From: Aeromicrobium sp. Leaf350
GTDB taxonomy: Bacteria; Actinomycetota; Actinomycetes; Propionibacteriales; Nocardioidaceae
Length of the DNA stretch: 64,000 nt
Direction of reading: 5' to 3'
NCBI RefSeq assembly: GCF_916858655.1
Contig: NZ_CAKASL010000001.1
Span: 868,001-932,000, forward strand
This document shows, one piece after another, positions 13,613 through 40,084 of this stretch. The notes below the pieces were generated by a model. The model saw only the letters and a program-made list of their open reading frames with translations, made no database searches and was not told the DNA's origin. The position numbers and the translations under genes were made by a program. Numbering within the stretch: position 1 is the first letter of the stretch; each line of letters opens with the position of its first letter.

Positions 13613-13679
13613 GGCGCCAGCGTCGCAAACGGTCGCGATCGCGTCCAGGCGTCCCGGGTCCGTCTGGGAGGATGAGCGG

Positions 13680-15683: not shown

Positions 15684-15685
15684 GG

Positions 15686-16321
15686 TCAGCCAGCGGCGGA
15701 CAGGGCGGGGCGGGCCGCGTCCAGCGTGTGTCCGCCGACGCCGAGCTCGAGCGCGTCGGCGAGGTCCTCGAGGGTGTCGACGTCACGGCGGACCACGAGG
15801 GGGACGTCCTCGACCCGGCGGAGGCCGAGCCGCTGGTGACGGGCGGCCGAACCGGTGCCGTACGCCGTGCGCAGGCGGCCGGCCGTCGCCGCCGAGACGA
15901 GCGTCGTGCCGCCGCGAGCGAGGTCGGGGACGAACGCGCGGTCGTGCTCGCCGAGCGCGGCGAGCGTCGTGGCCAGCGCGACGGGGTCGAGGCACGGCAG
16001 GTCGGCGGGCACGACGGCGACCGGCTCGCACGGAGCGTGCGCGAACGCCCACCGACGTCCGATCGAGACGGCGGTGTTGAGCCGCCCCGGGGTTCCGAGC
16101 GGCCGGTCGGCCATCAGGGCGACGTCGCGACGGCGTGCCTCGGCGGCCAGTCCGGTCTCTGCGGACACCACGACGACCCGTCCTACCCCGTCGGTCGCCG
16201 CGACGACGTCGAGCACGTCGAGCAGGAACGCGCGGGCCAGGTCGGCCCGACGCACGGTGCGCAGGCGGGACTTCGCGAGGTGCCACGGCTTGGCCGGCAC
16301 GATCACCGTCCACCCGCTCAC
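15686..16321 (-). CDS. fbiD: Phosphoenolpyruvate/2-phospho-L-lactate guanylyltransferase
   Basis: A 211-residue CofC/FbiD protein. It starts [17 protein letters not shown], the nucleotidyltransferase loop of the family, and has [16 protein letters not shown] (metal-binding DxP) and [18 protein letters not shown]. It activates PEP or 2-phospholactate with GTP to make the donor used by FbiA. It begins by ATGA overlap with fbiC and is the last gene of the long minus-strand operon. It converges on fbiB across a strong hairpin. Confidence 0.93.
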
Positions 16322-18990
16322 GAGGCCACGACCTCACCGGCAGGGGTGCCGGGCCCTGGGCGGCTGGCGAGCACAGCGCCGGGCCCTGGGCGGCGGTGAG
16401 ACACCGTCCCGGGCAGGTGCTCGTGGAGCGTCGTGCGCTGCACCGCGGGCCGGCCGCCCAGGTGCGCCATGGCGACGAGCTCGTCGACCTCCTTGCGGCT
16501 GCCGTTGGTGGAGCCGGCCATGCGGCTGATGGTCTCCTCCATCAGCGTGCCGCCCAGGTCGTCGACCCCGCCGTTGAGCACCTGGGTGCAGGTCTCGGGG
16601 CCGAGCTTGACCCACGAGCACTGCACGTGGTCGACCAGGCCGTGGAGCAGGATCCGGCCGAGGGCGTGGACCGCGCGGTTGTCGCGGACCGACGGTCCCG
16701 GCCGGGCGACGCCTGCGAGGTAGATCGGGCTGCTCTGGTGCACGAACGGCAACGGCACGAACTCGGTGAACCCACCGGTCTGACGCTGGAGGTCGGCGAT
16801 GAGCCGGATGTGGTCGACCCAGTGGCCGGGGTGGTCGACGTGGCCGTACATCATCGTCGCCGTGGTCGGCAGCCCGACGGAGTGAGCGGTGGTGACGACG
16901 TCGATCCACTGGGCCGTGGGGAGCTTGCCCTTGGTCAGGATCCAACGGACCTCGTCGTCCAGGATCTCCGCGGCCGTGCCCGGCAGGGAGTCGACACCTG
17001 CCTCCTTCAACGACACCAGGAACTCGCGGACTGACAGTCCCGTGCGGGACACGCCGTTCATGACCTCCATCGGGCTGAACGCGTGCACGTGCATGTCCGG
17101 GTCGGTCTGCTTGACCGTCTGCGCGATGCGCGCGTACGTGTCGGCCGGCAGCTCAGGGTCGATGCCGCCCTGGATGCAGACCTCCGTCGCGCCCGCCTCG
17201 CGGGCCTCGACGACGCGGGTCGCGATCTCCTCGAACGAGAGAGAGTACGCGTCGGCGTCGGTCTTGCGCTGGGCGAACGCGCAGAACCGGCAGCCGGTGT
17301 AACAGACGTTGGTGAAGTTGATGTTCCGGTTCACGACGTAGCCGACCCGGTCGCCCACGGCACTGCGGCGCAGGTCGTCCGCCAGCGCGCACACGGCCTC
17401 GAGCGCGGGACCCTCGGCTGCCGTCATGAGCGCCAACGCGTGCTCGCGGGAGATCCCTGACGGGTCCCGCTCGGCCGCCAGGAGGGCCGCCGTCACGTCA
17501 CTGCCGAGCGCGGCACCGAGGAGCGCGGGAGCGTTGCGGACCTTGTCGCGCAGGATCGACCAGTCGCCGTAGACCTCGTCGAAGTCACCCCGTCGGTCCC
17601 CCGTGCGACCGGTCGTGTCGATCGTCGAGTGCAGATCGGAGCGCCCCGTGGTCTCGAGTCCGCCGTCGGGCTCCTGCCACACCATCCCGACCGGCCTCGC
17701 ACCCTCGGCCAGCAGCCCGTCGGGGCCACGGAGCGCGTCGACGTGGCCCCGCAGACGAGGGTCGACCCACGGCGCGTCCAACAACTCGGGATGCGTGGTC
17801 AGGCGCGGCTTCAAGTCGAAGCCCTCCCCCTCGCAGACCTCACGCAGGAGGTCCAGGTCGGGCCACGGCCGCTCGGGGTTCACGTGATCGGGAGTGACGG
17901 GGCTGATGCCGCCGAAGTCGTCCACGCCCGCGGCGAGCAGGGCTCGGCACTCGGCCAGGTCGACCAGGTTCGGCGGCGCTTGGACCCGCACCGACGGACC
18001 CAGCACCACGCGCGCCGTCGCGACGGCGGCGAGGTTCTCGTCCAACCCTAGGTCGTCCACGCTGCGCATCGCGGTGGCGTCCTTGGCGCGGAAGTTCTGG
18101 ACGATCACTTCCTGAATCGACCCGTGCTCACGATGCACGCCACGGATCGCGAACAGGCTCTCGGCCCGCTCGGTCAGCGTCTCCCCGATCCCGACCAGGA
18201 TGCCGGTCGTGAACGGAATCCCGAGGCGCCCGGCGTCCTCCAGGACCCGCAGCCGGACGGCCGGGTCCTTGTCCGGGCTGCCGTAGTGCGGCTGCCCCTT
18301 CTCCTCGAACAACCGGCGGCTCGTGGTCTCCAGCATCATCCCCATGCTCGGGGCGACCGGCTTGAGGCGGTTCATCTCGGCCCAGCTCATGACGCCCGGG
18401 TTCAGGTGCGGCAGCAGGCCCGTCTCCTCCAGCACCCGGATCGCGAGAGCGCGGACGTACTCGAGGGTCGAGTCGTAGCCGGCCTCCTCGAGCCACTGCT
18501 TCGCCTCGGGCCAGCGGTCCTCCGGCCGGTCACCCAACGTGAACAGCGCTTCGGTGCAGCCTTGCTCGGCACCCGCTCGACAGATATCGAGGACCTCGTC
18601 GAAGCTCAGGAACAGGCTCTGCCCCTCACGCTCCAGCTGGCCTGGCGTCGCCACGAACGTGCAGTAGTGACACCGGTCCCGACACAACCGCGTGACCGGG
18701 ACGAACACCTTCGGCGAGAACGTCACCACACCCGGCCGACCCACCGCCTCCAGCCCCGCGTCACGCACCCGCGCAGCAACCGCCATCAACCGGTCCAGGT
18801 GCTCACCGCTCGCAGCGAGCAGCGCCGTCACCTCGGGCAGGTCGAGCGTCTTGCCCGCCTCCGCCCGAACCACCGCACGCCGCACCTCACGCTCCGTCGG
18901 CAGCACCTCGGCCACCGGGGCGGCCGGGAACGCGGGAAAGGGCAGCGCCGTGCTCTCTCGCTGCCCGGTGCCCGGCACTCCCGCCTGCAT
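16318..18990 (-). CDS. fbiC: FO synthase, fused CofG-CofH
   Basis: An 890-residue fusion of two radical SAM enzymes that makes the deazaflavin Fo from tyrosine and 5-amino-6-ribitylaminouracil. The CofG half has its CxxxCxxC cluster at C103, C107, C110 (CRDRCHYC). The CofH half has C563, C567, C570 (CYTGCRFC). TAGTGT lies seven bases before the ATG at 18990, so a leaderless internal message is possible; a GTG at 18996 is the alternative start. It sits 10 bp after npdG and overlaps fbiD. The last 25 or so residues come from a short repeated DNA element and are not typical of the family. Confidence 0.95.
16339..16406. repeat. Two short GC-rich repeat units inside the fbiC 3' end
   Basis: The core GCCGGGCCCTGGGCGGC occurs at 16348-16364 and again at 16378-16394. 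The left unit (16339-16364) is identical over 26 bases to 25960-25985 in a MaoC gene. The right unit (16378-16406) matches 25969-25997 at 27 of 29 positions. The repeats are translated as the C-terminal [20 protein letters not shown] tail of FbiC. Confidence 0.8.
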
Positions 18991-19000
18991 GGTCACGACA

Positions 19001-19708
19001 CTAGAGTCCGTGTCCGGTGATGCGGATGCCCGCGTGCGTCTTGTGGCGACGATTGATGGCGATCAGGTTCGCCGTGAGCTTCTCGACCTGGCCCGCATTC
19101 GCGAGCCGGCCGCCGAACAGCCCCCGCACACCGGGGATCGTGTCAGCCAGGGCGATCACCAGGTCGGTGTCGGCCCGCTCCTCGCCCACCACCAGCACGT
19201 CGGTGTCGACCTCCGCCTGCGACAGATCAGCCAGGACCACGGCCGAGACGTTGTGGAACGCGCCGATCACCCGCGACCCCGGCAGCACCGACTGCGCCTG
19301 CTGCGCCGCCGAACCCTCGGCCACCTCCAGCGGGAACGGACCGGTCTTGCCGAACCCGATCGGGTTCACGCAATCCACCACCACCTTGCCCTCCAGCTCG
19401 GCGGCCAACGAGGCCAACAGCTCGCCGTGGCCGTCCCACGGCACCGCCGCCAGCACCACGTCGGCCTGCGCCGCAGTCGCGGCGTTGTCCGCACCCGTCA
19501 CCCGGGCACCGACGAACCCCGCAGCAGCCACCAGCTCGGCGACCTCCTTGGCCGCGACCTCGGCCCGTCCGGCGTCACGCGAGCCCAGCACGACCGGAAT
19601 CCCCGCAGCCGCCCAGCGCAGCGCCAACCCGCGGCCCTGCGCTCCGGTACCACCGAGAACTCCGACGGTCACTCCCTCGAGCACACCCAGATCGGTCATG
19701 TCATCCAT
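19001..19708 (-). CDS. npdG: F420-dependent NADP+ oxidoreductase
   Basis: A 235-residue Fno/NpdG protein. [20 protein letters not shown] is the NADP-binding loop with the TGxQG pattern of F420:NADP oxidoreductases. [36 protein letters not shown] and the closing [16 protein letters not shown] are also family hallmarks. It recycles F420H2 from NADPH for the LLM-type reductases; one lies near the start of the same operon (30344). It overlaps the upstream hydrolase gene by 8 bp (an ATG at 19699 is also possible). Confidence 0.94.
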
Positions 19709-20534
19709 CCTCTCGGTCCAGCAGGTCGACCACCACGGCGGCGGCCCCTGCGGCGTCGTTGTCCAGGAACCCGTGGGTCCAGTCGGGTCGTTCCACGACG
19801 GCGCCCGCCGGCAGGTGCTCGGCGGCGCGGCGCGTCTGGTGGGTCAGGTCGTCGTCGAGGTTCAACACCGTGATCGGGACGTCGACCCGCGACAGCGCGT
19901 CTGCGATGTCGTACCGGAAGGCAGCGTGGTGCCCCCACCAGTGCCGCGGTCCGCCCGAGAGCCGGGCCAGGAAGATGCGGGCCGCGTCCTCGACGGTGTT
20001 GAACCGGCCGACACCGAAGAACTCGACGAACCAGCGCCACTTGGCCAGCAGGTTCTCTCCGTCCTCGGTGAAGATCGGGTCGGTGCGGTAGATCGCGAGG
20101 AAGTGCGCGAGCTCCTCGGCGGTGAACAGCGGCATCGAGACGGTGACGATGCGGCGCACGAGCCCGGGGTGACGCAGCGCCAGCTCGATCGCCGTGAAGG
20201 AGCCCGTGTGGTACCCCATCACGTCGACGGGGCGGGCGTCCCCCGTCCGCTCCTGCTCCGCGCGGACGACCTCGGCCATCACGTCGGCATAGTCGGAGAT
20301 CTCCGGCGGCTGCGGCGTCGGGTCGGAGGCACCGAATCCCGGGGTGTCGGGCGCGACCACGCGGCGGGTCCGCCCGATCTCGGCCATGACGTTCTCGTAG
20401 ACCAGGCCCGACGCCGGACTCATGTGCAGGCACAGCAGCGTCGGGGGCTCGGCATGGGTGCCGGCCGTGCGGACGTGGACCTGGCCGTGGGCGACGTCGA
20501 CGTAGCCACGGCGGACCGGGACGGGGCCGGTCAT
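19701..20534 (-). CDS. Alpha/beta hydrolase with non-canonical GYHTG elbow
   Basis: A 277-residue alpha/beta hydrolase. CLHMSPASG provides the oxyanion segment and DTPGFGASDP the usual loop. The nucleophile elbow reads GYHTG, so His stands where Ser is expected. LNLDDDLTHQ and DWTHGFLDN supply a possible acid and His. It resembles C-C or ester hydrolases acting on ring-cleavage products. A paralogue with GVHTG is encoded at 35654. Both ends overlap neighbouring operon genes by 4-8 bp. Confidence 0.82.
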   Translation of the reverse strand: MTGPVPVRRGYVDVAHGQVHVRTAGTHAEPPTLLCLHMSPASGLVYENVMAEIGRTRRVVAPDTPGFGASDPTPQPPEISDYADVMAEVVRAEQERTGDARPVDVMGYHTGSFTAIELALRHPGLVRRIVTVSMPLFTAEELAHFLAIYRTDPIFTEDGENLLAKWRWFVEFFGVGRFNTVEDAARIFLARLSGGPRHWWGHHAAFRYDIADALSRVDVPITVLNLDDDLTHQTRRAAEHLPAGAVVERPDWTHGFLDNDAAGAAAVVVDLLDREDG

Positions 20535-21265
20535 GCCGCCCACCGGACCGCTCGCGCCTGTCGGCCGTGGGCCAGCAGGTACCCGTCGGCGTCCCAGACG
20601 GTCGCGTCGTCGATGCAGGTCGAGCCCGTGGCCCACGAGGTCGTGTGGCTGACGAACATCCACGCGCTGGGGTCGACCTCGGCGTCCGTGCGGAAGTGCG
20701 CCGTGAACGACAGCGTGGGGACGAAGACCGGCTTGACCTCACGCGTGTAGAGCGCGGGCGGCATCACGTCGAGCAGGGTGGCCAGGACGGCCTCGGGCGA
20801 GTCGAGCGAGACCTCGGCGGGCGCCTCGTTGAGCCGGACCCAGCCGCCGCCGGGGCGCCCCTCCTGCGAGTTCTCGACGATCCTGAGGTCGAGCCGGTCG
20901 CGGAAGACGAGCTCGAGCTGTCCGTCGGCGGGGAGCGTGCCGACCGCCGGCCGCGGTGGCAGCTCGTGGCGGTCGGCCCACAGGTGCGGCTCGCCCGGCT
21001 GGGTGTGCTCGGCGAGGCCGTGGGCCCGCACCCGGTCCTGCTGGACCAGGGCGAACCGGCTCGTGGCGGTGCGACGACCCTCGTGGAGGACGTCGAGGTC
21101 GATCTCGGCATCGCCGGGCTTGACGGAGGCGACGAAGCAGACCGTCAGGGCGGCGAGCCGGTGCTCGACCGCGGCGACGGCGGCGTCCGCGACGCGCCCG
21201 AAGACGTGGCCGCCGAAGATGCCGTCGACGCCGCTCCACCGCGGGTCGAGCCGGGTCGCCACCAC
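20531..21265 (-). CDS. Acyl-CoA thioesterase-like double-hotdog protein
   Basis: A 244-residue protein starting at GTG. GIFGGHVFGRVADAAVAAVE near residue 15 matches the TesB-like opening, and the second half has FVPTLSFTAHFRTDAEVDPS and WMFVSHTTSWATGSTCID. It resembles thioesterase-family proteins that hydrolyse CoA esters. Within the operon it may release a CoA-bound intermediate or clear dead-end thioesters. It starts just after the cupin stop. Confidence 0.75.
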   Translation of the reverse strand: MVATRLDPRWSGVDGIFGGHVFGRVADAAVAAVEHRLAALTVCFVASVKPGDAEIDLDVLHEGRRTATSRFALVQQDRVRAHGLAEHTQPGEPHLWADRHELPPRPAVGTLPADGQLELVFRDRLDLRIVENSQEGRPGGGWVRLNEAPAEVSLDSPEAVLATLLDVMPPALYTREVKPVFVPTLSFTAHFRTDAEVDPSAWMFVSHTTSWATGSTCIDDATVWDADGYLLAHGRQARAVRWAA

Positions 21266-21266
21266 G

Positions 21267-21839
21267 TCAGAGCCCTCGACGGACGAGCGCGTCGTCGCCG
21301 GGTGCCTGCGCCGGCGGCCGCGACCAGTGCGACAGGTCGCCGGCGACGACCTCCCGCACGAAGTCCGGGTCGCCCGGCACGAGGGGCTCGCCGACCGACC
21401 ACGCGGCGACGCCCGAGGCGACCAGCGGGCCGGTCGCCCCGGTGACCCGGGTCGAGGTGATGACGTCGGTGCAGGCCTCGAGCTCGTCGGCCGGGAGGAA
21501 CGCGGCCGGACCGGCGAACCAGGCCAGCACGACGCAGCCCTGTGGCGACCGCATGTCGGTGCGCAGGAACTCGGCGGGCACGACGACCAGGTCGCCGCGA
21601 CGGTAGGTCCCGCCCTCGAGCAGGAGCTCGCCGTCGAGCACGAGCACCTCCTCCGAGGCGTGGTATCCGCCCGGCGTGAGCCGCTCGAAGCCGGCCGGGA
21701 ACCGGCCGAGGATCGAGAAGTGGCCCTCCGGTGCGGCGAGCGGCACGAGCTCGATGCCGCCGTTCGAGCCGGGCATCGGCACCTCGCGCCAGGGCTGGGC
21801 GTCGAGGTCGGTCAGGTCGAGCTCGGTGGGGCGGGGCAT
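21267..21839 (-). CDS. Cupin domain protein
   Basis: A 190-residue single cupin. The barrel motif is visible as PGGYHASEEVLVLDGELLLE followed by YRRGDLVVVPAEFLRTDMRS. Metal ligands are less complete than in classical dioxygenases: one H and two E in the first motif. It may be a non-haem metal enzyme or a binding protein. It begins at a TGATG overlap with the lyase gene upstream. Reaction unknown. Confidence 0.72.
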   Translation of the reverse strand: MPRPTELDLTDLDAQPWREVPMPGSNGGIELVPLAAPEGHFSILGRFPAGFERLTPGGYHASEEVLVLDGELLLEGGTYRRGDLVVVPAEFLRTDMRSPQGCVVLAWFAGPAAFLPADELEACTDVITSTRVTGATGPLVASGVAAWSVGEPLVPGDPDFVREVVAGDLSHWSRPPAQAPGDDALVRRGL

Positions 21840-22720
21840 CAGCGGGCCGCCCGGTCCGCGAGGGCCAGGGTGCGCTGCGCACCCGCGAGGACTGCGGGGT
21901 CGACCAGTCGTCCCTGCGGATCGAGCACGACGCCGCTGCCGGCTGCCTCGGCCTCCTCGAGGAGGCGGAGCACCGTGCGGGCCTCGTCGACCTCGTCGGT
22001 GGTGGGCGTGAACACCTCGTGCACGACCGCGACCTGCGCCGGGTGGATGCACGCACGACCGACGAAGCCCAGACGCTGGACCCGCTCGGTCGAGACACGG
22101 AGCGCGTCGGGATCGGCCGTGATGCGTGAGACGGGGCCGACCGGCGGCGCGATGCCCGCGGCGACGCTGGCGAGCACGACCATCGTGCGCATCGACAGCA
22201 GCTCGACCTCGTCCTCGCCGGGCGTGATGCCGGTGTCGCCGGCGAGGTCGACCTCGCCGATCTGCATCTGGTGGACCCGCGGACCGCTCGCGATCTCGCG
22301 CACCCCCAGCACCGCGACGGCAGACTCGACCAGCGGCATGAGCCGCGTGGTCTCGTCGCCGGCGGCCGAGAGCTGGGCGGCTACCGCCTCGACGTCCGCC
22401 CGGCTCTCGGCCTTCGCGAGCGCCAGGCCCGTCAGGCCGGGGAGACCCGCGAGCGCGGCCACGTCGGCGTCCCGCAGCGGGCCGGCGTTGACCCGCACCC
22501 ACACCTCGGTCGCCAGGTCGGCCGGGAGGGTCCCGATCCACGCCACGACGGCGTCGCGGGCGACGTCCTTCTCGGCGAGAGGGACGGCGTCCTCCAGGTC
22601 GACGATGACCGCGTCGGCCCCCCGCCCGAGGGCGCCGGCCAGCTTGCTGCCGGCGTTCCCCGGGACGTAGAGGTAGCTGCGGGGCAGGTCACCGACGCCC
22701 TCGCCCGACGACCGGGTCAT
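21839..22720 (-). CDS. HpcH/HpaI aldolase, CitE-like acyl-CoA lyase
   Basis: A 293-residue TIM-barrel protein. It starts with the CitE-type RSYLYVPGNAGSKLAGALGR, then GADAVIVDLEDAVPLAEK (acidic metal ligands), LMPLVESAVAVLGVREI, and GEVDLAGDTGI. CIHPAQVAVVHEVF near the end is typical. Relatives cleave citryl-, malyl-, methylmalyl- or citramalyl-CoA. Together with the MaoC hydratases and the CaiB CoA-transferase in the same operon it suggests retro-Claisen cleavage of a branched hydroxyacyl-CoA. Confidence 0.87.
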   Translation of the reverse strand: MTRSSGEGVGDLPRSYLYVPGNAGSKLAGALGRGADAVIVDLEDAVPLAEKDVARDAVVAWIGTLPADLATEVWVRVNAGPLRDADVAALAGLPGLTGLALAKAESRADVEAVAAQLSAAGDETTRLMPLVESAVAVLGVREIASGPRVHQMQIGEVDLAGDTGITPGEDEVELLSMRTMVVLASVAAGIAPPVGPVSRITADPDALRVSTERVQRLGFVGRACIHPAQVAVVHEVFTPTTDEVDEARTVLRLLEEAEAAGSGVVLDPQGRLVDPAVLAGAQRTLALADRAAR

Positions 22721-23877: not shown

Positions 23878-23891
23878 GGCGGGTGCCTTCC

Positions 23892-24338
23892 TCAGGTGGT
23901 GGTCGAGCTGGTGGTCGGCCGGAACACGGGGAGTGCCCGGCCGTCGGTCAGGTCCCACCAGGTGACCTCGACGGCGTCGCCGATCGAGACGGTCTGGTGG
24001 GGGTGGATGCGGGTCAGGAGGATCGGTCCCTCGGCCAGCCGGACGCGCGCGATCGTGTAGGGCGTCGCGACGTCGGCGCGGGGGGCGCGGTGGACCACCG
24101 TGAAGGAGTCGACCTCGCCGCGCCCGGAGACGTCGACCTGCGTCAGTCCCTCGAGCGTGCTGCACGCGACGCACACCGCCCGGGGCGGGTGCTGCACGGC
24201 CTGGCACGCCGAGCACTGCTGCACCGTCAGCCGGTGCTCACGGGTCGCGTCCCACCACGCGGTGGTGACGTCGTCGGGCTGCGGGACGGGGGGCTCGGGC
24301 GTCGGCACGGGCTCGGTGTGCGCGGTCGTGTCGGTCAT
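23892..24338 (-). CDS. DUF35 OB-fold/zinc-ribbon acyl-CoA-associated protein
   Basis: A 148-residue protein. The zinc ribbon is QCSACQAVQHPPRAVCVACS (two CxxC pairs at about residues 42-60), followed by an OB fold (GRGEVDSFTVVHRAPRADVA). DUF35 proteins bind to thiolase-fold partners; in steroid side-chain degradation the DUF35 part of ChsH2 activates the aldolase Ltp2. The adjacent thiolase-like gene overlaps it by 4 bp, so the two almost certainly form a complex. Confidence 0.88.
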   Translation of the reverse strand: MTDTTAHTEPVPTPEPPVPQPDDVTTAWWDATREHRLTVQQCSACQAVQHPPRAVCVACSTLEGLTQVDVSGRGEVDSFTVVHRAPRADVATPYTIARVRLAEGPILLTRIHPHQTVSIGDAVEVTWWDLTDGRALPVFRPTTSSTTT

Positions 24339-25501
24339 CGGTCGGCCCCCAGGACGACGGTCGCGTGCGTGGACATGATGCCTCCGGTGCCGTGGGCCAC
24401 GGCGATCTCCGCGTCGGGCACCTGACGGGCGCCGGCCTCGCCGCGCAGCTGGCGCACGGCCTCGACGAGCAGGAGCACGCCGTACTGGCCGGGGTGGCAG
24501 TACGAGAGGCCACCACCCGCGGTGTCGAGCGGCAGGTCGCCGCCGGGCCGGATGCGGCCGCCGGAGATGAAGTCCAGCACCTCGCCGCGGCCGCAGAAGC
24601 CGAGCGCCTCGATGCTGAGCGCGGCGGTGATCGTGAAGGAGTCGTACACCTCGAGCACGTCGACGTCGGCCGGCGTGATGCCGGCGCGGGCGAAGGCGTC
24701 AGCGCCCGACCCGACGGCACCCGTGACGGTGAGGTCCTGCACCGTGGTCATCGAGGTGTTGGTCGTGCGCTCGCCGTAGCCGAGCACCCGCACGACCGGC
24801 TTCGCCAGGTCGCGCGCCCGCTCGAGCGAGGTCAGCACGACCGCGCCGCCGCCGTCGGTCACGAGGCAGCAGTCGGCGACCGTGAGCGGGCTCGAGATCA
24901 TCCGCGACGAGACGACGTCCTCTGCGGTCAGCGGTCCGGCGCCGAAGCGGTAGGCCGCCGGGTTGAGCAGGGCCCACTCGCGGGCCGCGACCGCGACCTC
25001 CGCCAGCTGCTCGTGCGTGCCGCCGTAGCGGTGCAGGTACTGCTGGGCGGCCATCGCGTAGTACGACAGGGGGTACAGCGGGTCGTACGGCACCTCGAGC
25101 TGCGCCTCGGGGGTGTGGTCCTCGGTGACGCCGCCGAGCTTGCGCGACGCGGCCGAGCGCTGGTTGGAGGCGAAGCTGATGACGATCGTCTCGGCCTGAC
25201 CGGCCTCGATCGCCTGGGTCGCGCGGGCCACCATCATCTCGTAGGCGGAGCCGCCGGCGAAGGTCGAGTCGGTCCAGCGCGGCTGGAGCCCGAGATGGTC
25301 GGCGACCTGCGTGGCCGAGAAGCGCGAGACGCCGGTCGTGGCGATGCCGTCGACGTCGGCGAGCGTGAGGCCCGCATCCGCGAGGGCCCGGGTGATCGCC
25401 TGCGTCTGCAGGGTCAGGATCGACAGGTTCGTGACGCCCAGGTCGGACTCGGCCGCGCCCACGATCGCAGCGCCGGTACCGGTGCCGGTGGTGGGGCTCA
25501 T
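24335..25501 (-). CDS. Thiolase-fold protein, Ltp2-like aldolase candidate
   Basis: A 388-residue SCP2-thiolase-like protein. The region where thiolases have the nucleophilic Cys reads TFAGGSAYEMMVARATQ, with no Cys. The C-terminal motif is GGGLSYCHPGQYG in place of the usual GGGxAxGHPxGATG. Such Cys-less members, with a DUF35 partner, act as retro-aldolases (Ltp2) and not as thiolases. The order MaoC-like, MaoC, thiolase-fold, DUF35 matches the hydratase-aldolase set of steroid side-chain catabolism. I infer it releases a short acyl-CoA or ketone from a beta-hydroxyacyl-CoA. Confidence 0.85.
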   Translation of the reverse strand: MSPTTGTGTGAAIVGAAESDLGVTNLSILTLQTQAITRALADAGLTLADVDGIATTGVSRFSATQVADHLGLQPRWTDSTFAGGSAYEMMVARATQAIEAGQAETIVISFASNQRSAASRKLGGVTEDHTPEAQLEVPYDPLYPLSYYAMAAQQYLHRYGGTHEQLAEVAVAAREWALLNPAAYRFGAGPLTAEDVVSSRMISSPLTVADCCLVTDGGGAVVLTSLERARDLAKPVVRVLGYGERTTNTSMTTVQDLTVTGAVGSGADAFARAGITPADVDVLEVYDSFTITAALSIEALGFCGRGEVLDFISGGRIRPGGDLPLDTAGGGLSYCHPGQYGVLLLVEAVRQLRGEAGARQVPDAEIAVAHGTGGIMSTHATVVLGADR

Positions 25502-26004
25502 GGTCGGCCCGTCCCGTCGGCACGACCCAGCAGCACGCGGGCCGAGGCGGGCTTGACCGCGAAGCGGTCGTCGCGTCCGTCGGTGCCGAGCGTCGTGACG
25601 GTCATCGTGACGTCGACGTACGAGGGGTCCTCGGTCACCGCCCCGTCGGCGGAGCCGACATGAACAGCAGAGACCTCGCCCTCGCAGCGCACTGACTCCC
25701 CCGCGAACATCAGGTTGCGGAACGTGAAGTCGATGCTCTGCACGAAGCACTGCGGGCCGAGCCAGTCCTGCAGCATCTCGACGAGCAGCGCACCGAAGAC
25801 CTGGCCGTCGACGATGGGACCGGGCAGCTTCTTGGCCGCGACGTAGTCGGGGTCGTAGTGGCTCTGGTACCAGTCCCACGTGGCACCGGCGTACGCGACC
25901 ATGTCGGGCAGGCCGATACGTCGCTCGAGCGGCGGGATGGTGTCGCCGACCTTCGGCACGGCAGGGGTGCCGGGCCCTGGGCGGCGGGAAGACACCGCGG
26001 TCAT
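25498..26004 (-). CDS. MaoC family hydratase subunit
   Basis: A 168-residue hotdog protein. The hydratase motif is YAGATWDWYQSHYDPDYV, which keeps the catalytic Asp and His. VDGQVFGALLVEMLQDWLG follows. The first 15 residues ([11 protein letters not shown]) are encoded by a short repeat that also occurs at the end of fbiC and are not part of the fold. It overlaps the MaoC-N-like gene, its probable dimer partner, by 4 bp. Confidence 0.87.
   Translation of the reverse strand: MTAVSSRRPGPGTPAVPKVGDTIPPLERRIGLPDMVAYAGATWDWYQSHYDPDYVAAKKLPGPIVDGQVFGALLVEMLQDWLGPQCFVQSIDFTFRNLMFAGESVRCEGEVSAVHVGSADGAVTEDPSYVDVTMTVTTLGTDGRDDRFAVKPASARVLLGRADGTGRP
25960..25997. repeat. Short repeat shared with the fbiC 3' end
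   Basis: Bases 25960-25985 are identical to 16339-16364, and 25969-25997 match 16378-16406 at 27 of 29 positions. The core is GCCGGGCCCTGGGCGGC. It supplies residues about 3-15 of the MaoC protein. It looks like one complete unit of about 38 bp, of which the fbiC end carries two overlapping or partial copies. Confidence 0.8.
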
Positions 26005-26501
26005 GACTGGCCTCCCAGGTCGATGAAGATGATCGTCTCGGTGTTCTCGGCGAGGAACTCGTCGTGCTCGTCGGTGTAGGTCGCCCGCGACGTCACGATG
26101 AGCATCGCGGCGCCCGAGCCGCTCGTCTTCTCGACGGCGTCGGTGATCTCCCACGTCGCCGTCACGACGTCCTCGGGCCGCAGGCGGCGGCCGAAGACGT
26201 AGGCGTTGCCGCCCCGGACCTCCCGGGTGTTCTCGATCTGGATGCCCCAGCGGTGACCGGCGTAGCCCTCGTCGTCCATCGGCAGGCCCGAGTACTGGTT
26301 CGTCTCGCAGATCAGGGTCGGCGGGGCGGTGACCCCGGCCAGGCCCTGCGCGCGAGCGTGCTCGGGATCGCGGTAGAGCGGGTTGTCGTCACCGATCGCG
26401 AGGCCGAAGTAGCGGCCCGACGCGGCGCCGAACGGCTCCGGGGCGGTGTAGACCCGGCGCTGTCCCACCAGCGCCCGGATCTCGTCGGTCAGCAGGCTCA
26501 C
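26001..26501 (-). CDS. FAS1-like/MaoC N-terminal dehydratase domain protein
   Basis: A 166-residue hotdog protein. AIGDDNPLYRDPEHARAQG corresponds to the hydratase motif but has Tyr where the catalytic His should be, as in the non-catalytic half of heteromeric hydratases (ChsH2/HTD2 type). TAPPTLICETNQYSGLPM and NAYVFGRRLRPEDVVTATWE are typical. It probably pairs with the catalytic MaoC subunit encoded next, with a 4-bp overlap. Confidence 0.82.
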   Translation of the reverse strand: MSLLTDEIRALVGQRRVYTAPEPFGAASGRYFGLAIGDDNPLYRDPEHARAQGLAGVTAPPTLICETNQYSGLPMDDEGYAGHRWGIQIENTREVRGGNAYVFGRRLRPEDVVTATWEITDAVEKTSGSGAAMLIVTSRATYTDEHDEFLAENTETIIFIDLGGQS

Positions 26502-27724
26502 GCCTCGCTCCCCTCGTCACCGGCCGGGTACAGCGCCATCGGGAAGACCTCGAGCAGGAACTCGTCACGCAGCAGCGCCTTGCAGATGGCTCCGGTCGAC
26601 GCGGGCCACGGCTCCGACAGCAGCTTCTCGCGCACCGGGGCGACGGCCCGGTACTCCGGGATGGCCGACTCGACGCAGTACTCCACGGTCTCGAGGAGGT
26701 CGGTCGGCCCGAGACCCGCATGGGCCAGGAGCTCCAGGATCGAGCCGAACGTCGCCTCCGCCTGGGCGCCGATGTCACCGGGGTGCAGCGCCTCCTGGGT
26801 CTCCATGTCGAGGGCCGCGAAGCCCGACATGAACAGGGTGCGGCCGGCCTTGACGCCCGGCGAGTAGGTGAGGGTGTCGTAGCGCGACCAGCCCGGGTTG
26901 ACGAGCTCGAGCGGGTGCCGCGACGCGGTGACGTCCATCGCCACGAGCACGCCCGGGGCGTGCAGGCGGCTCATCAGGATGCCGCCGGCGCCCGGGTAGA
27001 CGCCCGCGCCGCCGAGGCGCTCCTTGCGCACGCGGTGCGAGCGTCGGTACTCGTCACGCGTCTCGGGGGTGGAGTAGTCGTACGTCGTCACGGCGTGGTC
27101 GAGCGACAGACCGGTCTCGCGCAGCAGCGCGTCGGCGCGGTCGAGGCAGTAGGCGTACTGACCCACGAAGTCGCCCGGCGACACGACGTCGCCGTGCTCG
27201 TCGAGCGGGACGACGGTCGGCAGGTAGACCGTGCCGTCGTGACCCTCGCGGATCGGCGACGCCGCCCAGGCGCCGGCGTCGCGGGCCTCGCTCGCGGCCC
27301 GCAGCTCGGTGCCGCCGCCCTTGACCGCGTGCAGCTCGACCTCGAGGAACGCGGTGCGGCGCACGAGACGCTCGACCACGACGGTGCGGACGACGGGCTC
27401 GTGCGCGCCGAACAGCTCACGGCGCACCGACGCGGCTGCCTCGTAGTCGGGCAGGCCCGACAGGGTGACGTTCTCGGTGATGCGCGTGACGTCCTCGGGG
27501 CCGAGGCCGGCGCCCGCGAGGATCGTGAGCACCTTCTCGTAGGCGATGCGGGCCTGCTGCTCCATCGTGCCGCCGACCGTCATCTTGCCGACCTCGGCGT
27601 CGAACGCGGCGGACGTGTGGCCGGACGTCCAAACGTTGTCGCCCTCGGAAAGTCCCAAGCAGAACGTGAACCCCTCGTACGGGAACCAGGGGAACTCCGC
27701 GGGGCGGATGGCGTTGAGCGTCAT
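26498..27724 (-). CDS. Triple RidA-domain protein
   Basis: A 408-residue protein that reads as three consecutive RidA (YjgF/UK114) units at about residues 1-134, 140-265 and 270-400. Unit 1 has VWTSGHTSAAFDAEVGK and VRTVVVERLV, keeping an Arg where RidA binds carboxylates. Unit 3 has TLFMSGFAALDMETQEALHP but STGAICKALL at the equivalent place. RidA proteins hydrolyse reactive enamines/imines. A triple unit in one chain may form a RidA-like trimer by itself. This hints at a nitrogen-containing intermediate in the pathway. Confidence 0.8.
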   Translation of the reverse strand: MTLNAIRPAEFPWFPYEGFTFCLGLSEGDNVWTSGHTSAAFDAEVGKMTVGGTMEQQARIAYEKVLTILAGAGLGPEDVTRITENVTLSGLPDYEAAASVRRELFGAHEPVVRTVVVERLVRRTAFLEVELHAVKGGGTELRAASEARDAGAWAASPIREGHDGTVYLPTVVPLDEHGDVVSPGDFVGQYAYCLDRADALLRETGLSLDHAVTTYDYSTPETRDEYRRSHRVRKERLGGAGVYPGAGGILMSRLHAPGVLVAMDVTASRHPLELVNPGWSRYDTLTYSPGVKAGRTLFMSGFAALDMETQEALHPGDIGAQAEATFGSILELLAHAGLGPTDLLETVEYCVESAIPEYRAVAPVREKLLSEPWPASTGAICKALLRDEFLLEVFPMALYPAGDEGSEA

Positions 27725-29103
27725 GACGGACCTCCAGGGCCGGGAACGGGGTGGATGGCGGAGTGGAGCGCGGCGACGAGGGCGTCGAGCGAGGGCTCGT
27801 CCTCGAGCCGGGCCAGCAGGTCGGCGACGGCCTGGCCCCCATGGCCGGCGTTGCCGAGGAACTTCTGGTGCAGCTGGTCGTCGGTGAGCGGGTGGGCGGT
27901 CGTGCCCGCGCTGCCGGAGACGGAGCCGACGACGTCGCGCCCGTCCTTGAGCCGCACGACGACGCGACCGGCTGCGTCGGCCGCGTGACCCACGGGGTCG
28001 GTGATGTTCCACGAGATCCGGGCCGCGACGTCGGAGACCTCGAGGCGGTCCAGCGACGCGGGCTCGTACGTGTCGAGTCCGACGGTGCCGTCGACGAGCA
28101 TCGCCGCCGTGCTCCAGGGGAGCGAGAACTTGGCGGCGTACGGCGTGTTCGGGTGCACCAGGTCGCGCCCGGGCGGGCAGACGGTCGGCGCGGAGTCGGG
28201 GTGGACGTCGGCGATGATCGAGACGACGTCGGCCGCCCCGAACGACTCGCGGACGGCGACCTCCCGCATGGCGTCGAGCGTCACGTGCATGAGCTGACAG
28301 GCCGGGTACGGCTTGATGCCGATGCGGGTCGTCTCCCAGCGGTCACCGAGGCCCTCGACCACGCTCTCGGGGTCGGCGGGCACCGCGGAGAGCGCGTCGT
28401 ACAGCCCGTTGGGGCCGTCGAGCACCGTCGCGGGTCCGCTGGCACCGGCGGCGGCGAGCCGCGCGGCTAGGATGCCGGCGTGCGAGGCGAGGCCGGGGTG
28501 CAGCTGCTTGGTGGAGGCGCCGGTGCCGAGGAAGGCGAGCAGCCCGCCCGCCTGGCTGCCGGCGATGCCGAGCGCGTCGGTCGCGGTCCCGGGCTCCTGG
28601 CCCGTGAGCCGGGCCGTGACGAGCGCCGAGGAGAACACCCCGGCGACCATCGTCGCGTGCAGGCCGCGCGTGTGGAAGCCGTGCGGAGCGGCGGCCGCGA
28701 TGCGGCAGACCGTCTCGTAGCCGACGACCGCGGCGTCCAGCGCCTGGCGACCCGTCGCCCCGACCTGCTGACCGACGGCGAAGACCGCCGGCAGCACGAC
28801 GGCCGTCGCGTGCACGAGGCCGCCCGCGTGGGTGTCGTCGAAGTCGAGGGCGTGCACGAGGGCGCCCGTGGCCAGTGCGGCAGCGGGAGCCCCGATGCGG
28901 CGGTCGTCGCCCAGGGCGACGGCCTCCGGCGGTCCGCCGAGGCCGGCCGCAACCTCCAGCACCGGGTCGACGGTGCCCGAGCGGTGGCCGGCGATCGCGG
29001 TGCCGAGGCCGTCGAGCAGGTGCCGCTTCGCGGCCGCGTCGACGTCCGCAGGCACGTCCAGCGGGGACGTGCCCCAGTGGGCGAGCCTGCGCGCGGTGGT
29101 CAT
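27721..29103 (-). CDS. MmgE/PrpD family protein
   Basis: A 460-residue protein of standard length for the family that includes 2-methylcitrate dehydratase and cis-aconitate decarboxylase. HALDFDDTHAGGLVHATAVV, GYETVCRIAAAAPHGFHTRG and GIKPYPACQLMHVTLDAM are diagnostic. The enzymes add or remove water, or decarboxylate tricarboxylates. In this operon it could process a di- or tricarboxylate. It overlaps both neighbours by 4 bp. Confidence 0.88.
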   Translation of the reverse strand: MTTARRLAHWGTSPLDVPADVDAAAKRHLLDGLGTAIAGHRSGTVDPVLEVAAGLGGPPEAVALGDDRRIGAPAAALATGALVHALDFDDTHAGGLVHATAVVLPAVFAVGQQVGATGRQALDAAVVGYETVCRIAAAAPHGFHTRGLHATMVAGVFSSALVTARLTGQEPGTATDALGIAGSQAGGLLAFLGTGASTKQLHPGLASHAGILAARLAAAGASGPATVLDGPNGLYDALSAVPADPESVVEGLGDRWETTRIGIKPYPACQLMHVTLDAMREVAVRESFGAADVVSIIADVHPDSAPTVCPPGRDLVHPNTPYAAKFSLPWSTAAMLVDGTVGLDTYEPASLDRLEVSDVAARISWNITDPVGHAADAAGRVVVRLKDGRDVVGSVSGSAGTTAHPLTDDQLHQKFLGNAGHGGQAVADLLARLEDEPSLDALVAALHSAIHPVPGPGGPS

Positions 29104-30347
29104 CGGGCGGCGGCCTCCGTCTCGGCCGTGTCGGGCTCGACGGGAGCCACCGCACCGAACGCTCCGCGGCTGCGCAGCGCCTCGAGCGCGTCGGCGTCGA
29201 GGTTCAGCACCTCGGTCGCGACCTCCTCGAGGTGCTCGCCGCGCTGCGGCGCCCGACGGTACTCGGGCACCTCGGACCCCACCCGCACGGGCGAGCCGAG
29301 CTGCTGGAGCGTGCCGTAGTGCGGGTGCTCGGTCTCGACGATCAGGTTGCGCGCCGCGGTGTGCGGATCGGTCAGCGCCGCCTCGACGTCGTTGATCGGA
29401 CCGCAGGGGATCGAGGCCGCGTAGAGCTCGGGCAGCCAGTCGTCGACGTTGCGCTCGCGGAAGATGTCCTCGAGCAGGCCGATCAGCTCGGCCTGGTTCT
29501 CCCGGCGCGACGAGAAGCTCGCGAACGGCGAGTCCTGCTCCGCCCACTCCGGGTGGCCGACGACCTTGGCGAGCCGCTGCCAGAACTTCTCCTTCGCGCA
29601 GCCGACGACCATCCAGCCGTCCTTGGCCTCGAAGGCCTGGAAGGGCACGAGGGACGGATGGGCGGAGTGGCTCGTGCGCACGGGCTCGAAGCCGGCGTTG
29701 AGCTTCCAGGTGGCCAGGTAGGCCAGCATCGTGACGGCCGTGTCGTAGAGGCTGACGTCGCAGTCCATGCCGACGCCGTCGCGGCGCGCGGCGTGCACCC
29801 CGGCCAGCAGCGACATCGCGGCGACGAAGCCGCCGGAGTAGTCCACGAGCGACAGGCCACTCTTGGTCGGCGGCCCCTCGGGCTCGCCGGTGAGCTCCAT
29901 CCAGCCGGCCAGGCCCTGCAGGATGTAGTCGTAGCCGGGCTCCTTCGAGCGCGGGCCGGTCATGCCGAAGCCGGTCAGCGAGACGCAGACGATCGCGGGG
30001 TTGAGGTGCTTGAGGTCGTCGTACATCAGGCGCATCTTGGCCGGGACGTCACCGCGGAGGTTGGAGTAGACGACGTCGGAGACCTTGACGAGCTCCTCGA
30101 AGACCTCGCGGCCCGCCTCGCTCGTGAGGTCCAGGGAGATGCTCCGCTTGTTGCGGTTGAAGGTCTCGAAGAACAGCGAGTCCTCGCCGTCGAAGTACGG
30201 CGGCACGTAGCGGCCGACGTCGCCGCCGACGTTGGGGTCCTCGATCTTGATGACCTCGGCGCCCAGGTCGGCCAGGTGCACCGTTCCGAACGGTCCGGCG
30301 CCGTACTGCTCGACGGCGATGATGCGGATGTCTTCCAGCGGCTTCAT
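29100..30347 (-). CDS. CaiB/BaiF (class III) CoA-transferase
   Basis: A 415-residue class III CoA-transferase. IIAVEQYGAGPFGTVHLADL and GAEVIKIEDP open the fold. KSGLSLVDYSGGFVAA carries the catalytic Asp that forms the acyl anhydride. NRNKRSISLDLTSEAG binds CoA. It moves CoA from a donor thioester to the substrate acid, priming it for the beta-oxidation-like steps encoded downstream. Closest functional analogues cannot be named from sequence alone; itaconate or mesaconate transferases are candidates. Confidence 0.9.
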   Translation of the reverse strand: MKPLEDIRIIAVEQYGAGPFGTVHLADLGAEVIKIEDPNVGGDVGRYVPPYFDGEDSLFFETFNRNKRSISLDLTSEAGREVFEELVKVSDVVYSNLRGDVPAKMRLMYDDLKHLNPAIVCVSLTGFGMTGPRSKEPGYDYILQGLAGWMELTGEPEGPPTKSGLSLVDYSGGFVAAMSLLAGVHAARRDGVGMDCDVSLYDTAVTMLAYLATWKLNAGFEPVRTSHSAHPSLVPFQAFEAKDGWMVVGCAKEKFWQRLAKVVGHPEWAEQDSPFASFSSRRENQAELIGLLEDIFRERNVDDWLPELYAASIPCGPINDVEAALTDPHTAARNLIVETEHPHYGTLQQLGSPVRVGSEVPEYRRAPQRGEHLEEVATEVLNLDADALEALRSRGAFGAVAPVEPDTAETEAAAR

Positions 30348-31384
30348 CGATTCGCTCCCGTGAACTCGGCGATCATGTCGATGATCGCGTCCTGGGCGAC
30401 GCGGGTGTCCTGCGCCGCAATGCCGTGCGTGGGTGGGCTGAGCTTGATCGAGTCGGCCACGCCGTCGTAGGCGGAGACCCGCTCGACGACCTCGTCGCGC
30501 GTGCCGCTGAGGGTCAGGGCGTCGACCATCTCGTCGCCGACGACGTCGGCCAGGTAGTCGGCGCCCGTGCCGGCGCGGAACGTCTCGATGACCGTCTGCT
30601 GCGCCTCGCCGAGACCGTGGAACTCGAACATCTCGACGTAGGAGCGGACCGTCGCGTAGAAGCCGACCAGGCCCGCCGCGCGGCGCCGGGCGACCGAGCC
30701 GTCGGCGTCGATCGAGCAGCAGGCCGAGACGACGACGTCGAAGTCGGCGCGCGACTTGCCGTCGGTCTTGTCGATGCCGGCCTGGAGGTCGGGCAGCAGG
30801 CGGTCGGTCAGGTAGCCCGGCGAGCACAGCTCGTGGCTGATCCAGCCGTCGCCGATCTGGCCGGCGAGCCGCATCATGTACGGGCCCATCGCGGCCAGGT
30901 AGACCGGGATCTCGGTCCGCTGCACCGGGAAGGGACGCTCGTACCCGCGGATGTGCATGGGCTCGTAGTCGCCCTCGGTCTGCATCGTCTCGCCGGTCGT
31001 GGCGGTCGACCAGAACAGGCGGAGGTTCCGCACGGTCTCGCGCATGTGCGGCACCGGCTTGCCGAACTCGACGTGGTGCCAGTCCTCGTTGAGGCGCTGC
31101 ACGCCCGAGCCGAGACCCAGGACGAACCGTCCGCCGCTCATCTCGTCGAGGTCGAGCGACTCCAGGGCCGTCACCATCGGGCTGCGCGTGAACGCCAGCA
31201 GGATCGAGGTGCCGACCTTCGCGGTGCTCGTGCCGGCGGCGAGGGCCGCCGCGGTGATCGTCGCGCTGCGGTGGAGCTCGGAGGTCCAGAGGATCTCGGC
31301 CCCGGCCTCCTCGGCCCGACGGCCGGCCGCGACCAGCTCCTCCAGGGTCTCCCCCCAGGGCTGGTAGGTGATGGCGAGGCTCAT
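30344..31384 (-). CDS. LLM class F420-type oxidoreductase
   Basis: A 346-residue luciferase-like protein. LWTSELHRSATITAAALAAG and TSILLAFTRSPMVTALESLD are typical of F420-dependent members, as are GGRFVLGLGSGVQ and EIPVYLAAMGPYMMRLAGQI. Being in the same operon as npdG and the F420 synthesis genes makes F420H2 the likely hydride donor. It may reduce an unsaturated ring or enoyl substrate, or oxidise an alcohol. Co-translation with the CoA-transferase puts it early in the pathway. Confidence 0.9.
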   Translation of the reverse strand: MSLAITYQPWGETLEELVAAGRRAEEAGAEILWTSELHRSATITAAALAAGTSTAKVGTSILLAFTRSPMVTALESLDLDEMSGGRFVLGLGSGVQRLNEDWHHVEFGKPVPHMRETVRNLRLFWSTATTGETMQTEGDYEPMHIRGYERPFPVQRTEIPVYLAAMGPYMMRLAGQIGDGWISHELCSPGYLTDRLLPDLQAGIDKTDGKSRADFDVVVSACCSIDADGSVARRRAAGLVGFYATVRSYVEMFEFHGLGEAQQTVIETFRAGTGADYLADVVGDEMVDALTLSGTRDEVVERVSAYDGVADSIKLSPPTHGIAAQDTRVAQDAIIDMIAEFTGANR

Positions 31385-31929
31385 CGCGCGCCCTTGGTGC
31401 GCTCCGCCTCGGACTCCAGCGACAGCGGGACCTCGGCCTCCGGGAAGATGCCCTCGAGCTGCTCCGCGCCCTGCTTGTAGACGTAGAACGTGCGCTTGAA
31501 CGAGCACACCTCGACGGCGTCCTGGTTCAGCGTGCGCGTGCGCACCGTGACGATGCCGGCGTGCGGCCGCGACCCCGACTCGCGCTTCTCGAGCACGAGC
31601 GACTCGCTGTACAGGGTGTCACCGGAGAAGACGGGCTTCGTCATCTTGATGTCGTCCCAGCCGAGGTTCGAGAACGCGTTCTGCGTCAGGTCCGTGACGC
31701 TCTGGCCGACGGCGATGGCGAGCGTCAGCGTCGAGACGACGAGCGGCTTGCCGAACTCCGACTTCGCCGCCCACTCGGTGTTGAAGTGCATCTGCGCCGT
31801 GTTCATCGTCAGCAGCGTGAACCAGGTGTTGTCGGTCTCGGTGACGGTGCGACCCAGGGGGTGGCGGTAGACGTCGCCGACCTCGAAGTCCTCGTAGAAC
31901 CGGCCGACCCAGCCCTGCTTCTGACCCAT
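31381..31929 (-). CDS. MaoC family hydratase, mesaconyl/itaconyl-CoA hydratase-like
   Basis: A 182-residue hotdog protein and the first gene of the 17-gene operon. RFYEDFEVGDVYRHPLGRTV and NTWFTLLTMNTAQMHFNTEW match the hydratase type acting on mesaconyl- or itaconyl-CoA, with His kept and the Asp position replaced by Asn. VSTLTLAIAVGQSVTDLTQN and KPVFSGDTLYSESLVLEKRE follow. With the CaiB transferase and the CitE lyase it forms the three-enzyme set known from C5-dicarboxylate breakdown. A promoter with an operator lies 33-61 bp upstream. Confidence 0.88.
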   Translation of the reverse strand: MGQKQGWVGRFYEDFEVGDVYRHPLGRTVTETDNTWFTLLTMNTAQMHFNTEWAAKSEFGKPLVVSTLTLAIAVGQSVTDLTQNAFSNLGWDDIKMTKPVFSGDTLYSESLVLEKRESGSRPHAGIVTVRTRTLNQDAVEVCSFKRTFYVYKQGAEQLEGIFPEAEVPLSLESEAERTKGAR

Positions 31930-38158: not shown

Positions 38159-38168
38159 CGGGAGCCCT

Positions 38169-40080: not shown

Positions 40081-40084
40081 CTGT

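Follow-up and report, generated by a model that had tools for sequence, protein, structure and literature searches.

F420 biosynthesis genes joined to catabolic operons in Nocardioidaceae point to possible pathway-specific, on-demand synthesis of the cofactor

Introduction

Why should genes for the synthesis of a cofactor stand at the end of an operon for the degradation of a substrate? Synthesis of F420 is generally regarded as constitutive. The question is raised by a stretch of 64,000 nucleotides from Aeromicrobium sp. Leaf350 (assembly GCF_916858655.1, contig NZ_CAKASL010000001.1, positions 868,001 to 932,000 of the forward strand; hereafter the window), part of contig C1 in a genome of 3.5 Mb. 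Its FbiC agrees with this host: the nearest named relatives come from Aeromicrobium, and four FbiC sequences of the genus are identical to those of named Aeromicrobium loci. A run of 17 genes in the window, here called operon A, begins with catabolic genes and ends in the F420 genes npdG, fbiC and fbiD; operon B denotes a second acyl-CoA operon of the same genome that ends in F420 genes. The explanation that we regard as probable is that operon A is one transcription unit, formed by the addition of an F420 module to a conserved catabolic operon containing an F420-type luciferase-like (LLM) oxidoreductase, with a GntR-repressed promoter and read-through to npdG-fbiC-fbiD. It is based on gene order, tight junctions, protein families, an operator-like motif and the recurrence of the pairing in relatives, all of which are sequence evidence.

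Results

A catabolic run that ends in F420 genes

Gene calls and family searches placed all 17 genes of operon A head to tail on the minus strand, from 31929 down to 15686. The first fourteen are of catabolic type and encode, in order, a MaoC-type (R)-enoyl-CoA hydratase resembling Ich/RipB (31381..31929; PF19315/PF01575; RipB_Ich 195 bits, under the cut-off of 340), an LLM oxidoreductase closest to F420-dependent families (30344..31384; PF00296), a family III CoA-transferase (CaiB; 29100..30347; PF02515, with relatives in the PDB), an MmgE/PrpD family protein whose nearest solved relative is IDS epimerase (27721..29103; PF03972/PF19305), a tandem RidA protein of 408 aa with two PF01042 stretches (26498..27724), HadA-like (26001..26501; PF13452) and HadB-like MaoC (25498..26004; PF01575) dehydratase subunits, an SCPx/thiolase-like protein (24335..25501; PF22691), its zinc ribbon and OB-fold partner of the ChsH2 C-terminal type (23892..24338; PF12172, PF01796), an acyl-CoA dehydrogenase (22717..23877; PF02771/PF02770/PF00441), a CitE-like acyl-CoA lyase (21839..22720; PF03328; RipC_Ccl 131 bits, under the cut-off of 375), a ChrR-type cupin (21267..21839; PF12973), a 4HBT_3 acyl-CoA thioesterase (20531..21265; PF13622/PF20789) and an alpha/beta hydrolase (19701..20543; PF00561). 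The Pfam matches of the LLM, CaiB, MmgE/PrpD, HadB, SCPx, dehydrogenase, CitE, cupin and hydrolase proteins were obtained with the longer open reading frame. The last three genes, all over their model cut-offs, encode the NADPH:F420 reductase NpdG (Fno; 19001..19708; TIGR01915, 235 bits, cut-off 150), the fused CofG-CofH FO synthase FbiC (16318..18996; NF006687, 1409 bits, cut-off 1018) and FbiD of the CofC type (15686..16321; TIGR03552, 134 bits, cut-off 105). On the plus strand, fbiA (CofD; 13539..14669; PF01933) and fbiB (14662..15615; PF01996) converge on fbiD.

The junctions measure, in order, -4 bp eight times, then +14, -4, -1, +1, -13, -8, +4 and -4, so that 13 of the 16 are overlaps and the other three are gaps of 14, 1 and 4 bp. 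Several start codons were chosen among alternatives (26004 for HadB), and the next npdG start, at 19699, would turn the overlap of 8 into a gap of +1. A preliminary description of this DNA had reported a 17-gene operon at 31929-16318 with every junction an overlap or a gap of at most 14 bp and with fbiA-fbiB facing the F420 genes. The gene number, the junctions and the convergent arrangement were all confirmed; the end had to be moved, because 16318 is the end of fbiC and the 17th gene, fbiD, ends at 15686.

A promoter, an operator-like motif and a linked GntR regulator

Across the region 15600-32200, where shuffled sequences gave a mean of 0.3 sigma-70-like and 2.1 terminator-like sites, one sigma-70-like site was found, TTGACG-17-TATTCT at 31990-31962 on the minus strand, ahead of the first gene, and not a single terminator-like one; the scan is weak in DNA this rich in G+C. 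An operator-like palindrome occupies the promoter spacer between TTGACG and TATTCT (31969..31979, plus strand). The presumed controller is an FCD-type GntR regulator encoded at 32057..32845 on the minus strand (PF00392, PF07729; longer open reading frame).

The motif WTGTCNGACAW, with at most two mismatches, was enriched in the window (51 matches against 31.2 expected, a number that none of 100 shuffles reached). Most of these matches lie inside genes; 14 are outside called genes, and at least one of those is inside fbiA, which had not been called. Four intergenic stretches hold five sites with at most one mismatch, against 0.11 in shuffles and with 0 of 1000 reaching that number, a figure that is overstated because the motif and the stretches were picked after viewing the same sequences. 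An earlier seed, TGTCTGATG, showed no enrichment in the window (6 occurrences, 8.4 expected).

Association with the regulator was assessed at 30 loci of operon A in relatives, one of which, L155 of the relative G031, also served together with the window to define the motif. Presence of the regulator was scored by tblastn with the window protein, down to 42% identity and within about 1.8 kb upstream. The motif, at up to two mismatches, occurred in the ~250 bp ahead of the first gene at all 12 loci that have a GntR relative next to the operon and at 3 of the 18 that have none (p=1e-5); at up to one mismatch the figures were 7/12 and 2/18 (p=0.013). The motif keeps one and the same register relative to promoter-like hexamers in three places: the window, the DNA preceding the first gene of G031, and the Nocardioides genome G152. 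These observations suggest that the linked GntR protein binds the motif sites.

On the explanation that we favour, GntR would most likely repress the promoter at 31990-31962 through the palindrome inside it, and an intermediate of the substrate would release it. Read-through would then yield the CoA-pathway enzymes together with NpdG, which would recharge F420 from NADPH, FbiC for FO and FbiD for the activated tail precursor, and FbiA and FbiB, expressed from the opposite strand, would finish the cofactor. F420 would accordingly be predicted to rise on induction.

Operon A and its F420 attachment in relatives

The tandem RidA protein (two RidA domains, 26498-27724) is a good marker of operon A, and 341 genomes of the family were searched with it. 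Thirty of them gave a match, partial-length in some, and the plasmid collection gave none at 1e-20. At E <= 1e-30 the search returned 32 places, of which 31, in 30 genomes, were inspected as one 20-kb stretch each: 29 from 28 genomes, the G031 locus and the window; a second place in G111 (C55) was left out. The order MaoC, LLM, CaiB, MmgE/PrpD, RidA, HadA, HadB, SCPx, zinc ribbon/OB, acyl-CoA dehydrogenase was kept in 31/31 loci. F420 genes were attached in three, namely the window, G031 and G152.

The two attachments outside the window differ from it in layout. In G152 the CitE gene is followed directly by npdG-fbiC-fbiD, with fbiA-fbiB ~1 kb further on, and this attached fbiC is the only one in that genome. 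A quick FbiC tree, with SH-aLRT support only, groups G152 with Nocardioides terrigena and places the FbiC of the window within the clade of its own genus; because the two sit in different parts of the tree, the joining of operon A to F420 genes is taken to have arisen at least twice. Transfer of the window fbiC from a distant donor was rejected on the same tree, with the same limit on support. In G031, an isochorismatase gene between the cupin and the thioesterase interrupts the run and leaves thioesterase-hydrolase-npdG-fbiC-fbiD as a separate unit, which is preceded by two motif-like sites. One of these, ATGTCTGATGT, overlaps the spacer end and second hexamer of TTGACA-17-TGTATT (read by eye), and the same eleven bases occur in the G152 promoter. 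We read this as G031 and the window keeping the F420 genes under the pathway regulator by two different layouts.

The sequences beyond fbiA matched only in G031 among seven genomes compared; G041, G011 and G022 gave one weak match of 30-33% each, and G046, G012 and G013 none. Since these flanks differ between genomes, the F420 cassette has no fixed site.

Several observations weigh against co-regulation. No F420 genes lie within the 20-kb stretch at 28/31 operon A loci, and npdG-fbiC-fbiD facing fbiB-fbiA is present without operon A at five loci (L095, L096, L111, L113, L114). In a survey of the genus, described below, the tight run upstream of fbiC consists of at most npdG and/or one further gene at 14/22 loci. 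The motif before the F420 unit of G031 has two mismatches, as has its G152 copy, and it is placed at the spacer end and second hexamer; the consensus scan reports no promoter before this split-off unit. FbiC is present in 23/30 carriers of operon A and in 208/311 other family genomes (p=0.31), so that its enrichment in carriers was rejected as proof of an F420 need. Finally, seven carriers, all of genus g18 (taken as Nocardioides), had neither FbiC nor any CofH. We nevertheless consider co-regulation of the F420 genes with operon A the better reading.

Measured against the preliminary description, its view that the F420 genes end a substrate-controlled operon is supported as to the tight, GntR-linked catabolic run and its motif, and substrate control itself stays a prediction. 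Its proposal of cofactor co-induction, likewise predicted, gains from the operator-like motif in the operon promoter and before the split-off unit of G031, from a second npdG-fbiC-fbiD set in the genome and from the independent attachment in G152. The high F420H2 demand that it offered as a possible reason is a hypothesis against which the FbiC counts speak, given the lack of enrichment in carriers and the seven carriers devoid of the protein. Conserved synteny, which it suggested looking for, extends to the core of operon A in every locus and to the F420 attachment in only three; the case it named as contrary, an fbi locus without the catabolic genes in all relatives, was encountered in part, in the five loci above and in the 28 operon A loci whose stretch has no F420 genes.

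Other catabolic operons joined to F420 genes

Within the genus, 22 loci of the usual FbiC form in 20 relatives were surveyed, and catabolic or transport genes stood in a tight run before fbiC at eight. The tight runs were built with a loose start rule, and the label catabolic comes from relatives of reference proteins and, for part of the genes, Pfam. G031 has the operon A genes from the thioesterase on and G022 (L113) has operon B; G012, and similarly G026, has a nucleoside-type operon with ABC transporter, deaminase, P450, pyrimidine phosphorylase and MaoC genes (Pfam for G012); cyclase-like and LLM genes precede fbiC in G042, an ABC transporter and a dehydrogenase in G041, and an enoyl-CoA hydratase relative in G046 and G037. 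At L100 (6005-15608), with a similar arrangement at L101, the nucleoside-type operon that leads directly into fbiC encodes a Bmp binding protein, permeases, cytidine deaminase, P450, pyrimidine phosphorylase, MaoC and one further product. Operon B ending in F420 genes was found in the genome of the window, in G022 and in Nocardioides terrigena (L023), where the order is npdG-fbiD-fbiC.

Two genomes of the Nocardioides group carry further examples. G214, which has three fbiC copies, contains a tight LLM/acyl-CoA run (L178, 203-14502; junctions -8 to +21) with ABC transporter, LLM, enoyl-CoA hydratase, acyl-CoA dehydrogenase, CaiB, ligase, hydroxyacyl-CoA dehydrogenase and hydratase genes, ending in fbiC-npdG-fbiD plus one gene for 215 aa. 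G222 has a comparable but different LLM run with an amidase, ending likewise in fbiC-npdG-fbiD (L187, 4624-16853; junctions -8 to +29). The enzymes of both share common families with operons A and B, at no more than 35% identity in the comparison made. The distinction between attached and other fbiC copies is not sharp, because at many Nocardioides loci the 10 kb upstream of fbiC contain relatives of an LLM and an acyl-CoA dehydrogenase, even where fbiC is not tightly joined to a run.

A second F420 set, a single fbiA-fbiB and exchange between fbiC copies

A second npdG-fbiC-fbiD set, which the preliminary description had proposed to seek, is present at C1:1178592-1182420 of the same genome and ends operon B. 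There the order is AMP-forming ligase, acyl-CoA dehydrogenase, thiolase, enoyl-CoA hydratase, npdG, fbiC, fbiD (L006, 8554-18583), preceded by SnoaL-like and cyclase-like genes. The only full fbiA of the genome is that of the window; the other two PF01933 matches are YvcK, rejected as fbiA (C2:815294, adjoining WhiA), and a short CofD-like protein of 241 aa. The latter (L009, 1420-2825) adjoins a TIGR03089 protein. No second F420 ligase was found in the genome, the match being one gene in two pieces, the fbiB of the window. Given the lack of a second full fbiA and of a second ligase, F420 in this cell probably depends on the fbiA-fbiB pair of the window.

Mycobacterial FbiB has a C-terminal nitroreductase-type domain, which the Pfam search did not find in the 317-aa FbiB of the window, where the ligase domain stands alone. 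Stand-alone nitroreductase-family genes adjoin F420 sets at L006 7306-8130 (the second set) and at L183 8863-9672, and could supply the reductase step absent from FbiB here.

The two fbiC copies of the genome (window 16318-18996; L006 9186-11768) are 91% identical in protein, whereas the npdG and fbiD copies are only 50-52% identical. Compared with G031, the npdG genes pair by locus (A with A 89%, B with B 86%, A with B 50-51%) and the fbiC genes do not (91%, 88% and 87-92%; also L115 and L116). At third codon positions the two own fbiC copies agree at 76%, copies of the two species at 55-62%, and the two G031 copies at only 59%, which points to a recent exchange in the genome of the window and not in G031. 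Between the own copies, DNA identity falls at both gene ends, with one dip inside. Gene conversion is the simplest reading and is probable. These patterns allow a broader proposal, which we put forward only tentatively: that F420 in Nocardioidaceae is an on-demand cofactor, with dedicated npdG-fbiC-fbiD cassettes repeatedly fused to unrelated LLM/acyl-CoA operons under the pathway regulator, several per genome, and fbiC kept alike by gene conversion.

F420 synthesis in the genus, the family and on plasmids

FbiC was detected in 29 of 49 genomes of the host genus, as the usual fused form over the cut-off in 21 and as a divergent form in eight; npdG was found in 17/49. Of the 20 genomes without FbiC, 11 are at least 99% complete and the others less so. 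F420 synthesis is thus, as judged from gene content, accessory in this genus, and the premise of the preliminary description that it is usually a housekeeping function does not hold here. The divergent proteins (L117-L124) are 35-62% identical by piece, with open frames of 725-752 aa in seven genomes and 836 in G003, and a CofC relative lies ~1.4 kb downstream.

Among the carriers of operon A, the seven without FbiC are G111, G125, G127, G147, G153, G167 and G317 (L160-L166); six are 99-100% complete, and G111 is 91% complete with 7% contamination. The idea that all carriers make FO themselves was therefore rejected. An F420 ligase was kept in 13/13 carriers tested, these seven included, and fbiA adjoins it in 12 of them, namely the genome of the window and those from which a stretch was retrieved. 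Such carriers may take up FO made by others. Their existence makes it less certain, without overturning the idea, that the LLM enzyme of operon A needs F420.

The patchy distribution gives some weight to a rival explanation in which a pathway that uses F420 can, after transfer, function immediately in a recipient devoid of F420, so that co-transfer was selected and not co-induction. Besides the 20 genomes lacking FbiC and the differing cassette sites, it can draw on plasmids: FbiC was found in 23 plasmid records, with coverage of the query reaching 80% or more in 8. The plasmids include pRHL3 with CofGH-cofC and pCZY, which is predicted to be conjugative and has hydratase, RidA, MaoC, aminotransferase and CoA-transferase genes ahead of cofD and CofGH. 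However, G214, G222 and the genome of the window (G000) have further fbiC copies, and a recipient that already makes F420 needs no extra genes; the FbiC of the window falls in the clade of its own genus, and the motifs before the F420 unit of G031 favour regulation. We judge this explanation rather unlikely.

A second rival holds that the arrangement is neighbourhood only: a resident F420 locus has its own expression, and the position of the catabolic operon directly upstream is coincidental. It would fit the presence in the window of the only full fbiA and only fbiB found in the genome, the five cassettes without operon A and the 28 operon A loci without F420 genes; moreover, the scan finds no promoter before the split-off unit of G031 either, so such scans may miss promoters. 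Against it, npdG overlaps or nearly touches the gene upstream and no promoter-like site was found before it, in G031 operator-like motifs precede the unit in which the F420 genes come after two catabolic genes, independent pairings exist in G152 and with other operons, and the cassette has no fixed site, its fbiA flanks matching in G031 alone of the seven genomes. Mere adjacency is, in our assessment, unlikely, and transcription of the F420 genes as part of operon A continues to be preferred.

The LLM enzyme and the chemistry of the pathway

The best solved relatives of the LLM protein are F420-dependent Mer enzymes (E 5e-33), luciferases following at 1.9e-7 or weaker. It reaches the cut-off of no named F420 LLM subfamily listed, the best being TIGR03617 (185 against 278 bits). 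Use of F420 is accordingly predicted from its relatives. That it uses FMN instead, the F420 genes serving other enzymes, is very unlikely: the seven carriers without FbiC keep the LLM gene, the subfamily cut-offs are missed and RidA beside an LLM enzyme resembles the Rut pathway, but the much closer Mer relationship, the ligase and fbiA retained in carriers and the presence of npdG in the same run as the LLM gene speak for F420.

In PDB comparisons, the CaiB protein is related to a benzylsuccinate CoA-transferase subunit. The SCPx-like protein has thiolase 4u4e as its best relative, with 6ok1, which we take to be the lipid-transfer protein Ltp2, and the benzoylsuccinyl-CoA thiolase subunit 7pxp as others, and, like an Ltp2-type retro-aldolase, it has an adjacent zinc-ribbon/OB partner. 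Retro-aldolases of this type lose the N-terminal thiolase nucleophile cysteine. When aligned to 4u4e, the protein showed no cysteine at the presumed position of this residue. Taken together, the CaiB, MmgE/PrpD, acyl-CoA dehydrogenase, Ich-like and CitE-like proteins and the steroid-like hydratase/aldolase layout point to a branched or 2-substituted dicarboxylate skeleton as the expected substrate. RidA suggests a substrate perhaps carrying nitrogen.

Neighbouring genes with the same motif

Upstream of the regulator gene, a minus-strand unit at 32868..41674 (gene calls and families) encodes a solute-binding protein, two permeases, two ABC ATPases, an alpha/beta hydrolase, an enoyl-CoA hydratase, a 132-aa protein and an AMP-forming acyl-CoA ligase, and its gene order is kept in G031 (L155). 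A perfect WTGTCNGACAW lies before this ABC-transporter operon (41726..41736). Further operator-like sites, on the plus strand like the former, lie between an Asp/Glu racemase gene and a divergent acyl-CoA dehydrogenase operon (42952..42962) and before cupin/ApbA/TPP-enzyme/CN-hydrolase genes (46336..46346). The plus-strand genes at 42978-52057 encode acyl-CoA dehydrogenase, glyoxalase, MFS, cupin, ApbA, TPP enzyme, CN-hydrolase and MFS proteins; as two stretches before them hold the motif, they may share the regulon of operon A.

Discussion

From the joining of F420 genes to catabolic operons it would seem that individual pathways may call up synthesis of the cofactor when they need it. If so, the F420 level would be a readout of which pathway runs, extra fbi copies would be markers for F420-dependent degradation pathways whose substrates are yet to be identified, and pathway-inducible F420 supply would be a tool for biocatalysis.

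Operon A resembles several known systems in part. The layout HadA-HadB-SCPx-OB is typical of steroid side-chain hydratase/aldolase sets (ChsH1-ChsH2-Ltp2; Shy-Sal), and operon A likewise has HadA/HadB hydratase genes, an SCPx/thiolase-like gene and a zinc-ribbon/OB partner side by side. In contrast to those sets, no steroid-ring genes were recognised among its families, and the best PDB relative of its SCPx protein is a thiolase. The Bbs pathway of benzylsuccinate handles 2-substituted succinates. Operon A shares with it a CaiB protein like the CoA-transferase subunit and an SCPx protein like the benzoylsuccinyl-CoA thiolase subunit, whereas nothing specific to arylsuccinates appears in the evidence for operon A.

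The itaconate/methylsuccinate cluster (ict-ich-ccl-mcd-mmgE) is described as comprising a CoA transferase, itaconyl-CoA hydratase, lyase, acyl-CoA dehydrogenase and MmgE/PrpD protein (PMC12290011), and all five families are clustered in operon A. However, operon A was not filed as such a cluster because its Ich-like and Ccl-like proteins miss the equivalog cut-offs; it also adds LLM, RidA, HadAB, SCPx, zinc-ribbon/OB, cupin and F420 genes.

The nearest precedent found is the npd operon for picrate and 2,4-dinitrophenol in Rhodococcus and Nocardioides. There, npdG lies within the picrate degradation operon (PMC5352752) and the picrate reductase is an LLM-type enzyme (PMC8498797). Going by these descriptions, operon A would differ in also having fbiC and fbiD in the run, in its one LLM gene and in its mostly CoA-chemistry genes. 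No description of F420 synthesis wired into catabolic regulons was found among the open-licence papers listed in the searches. While npdG in the picrate operon is already known, the repeated presence of FO synthase and fbiD inside catabolic operons appears to be new.

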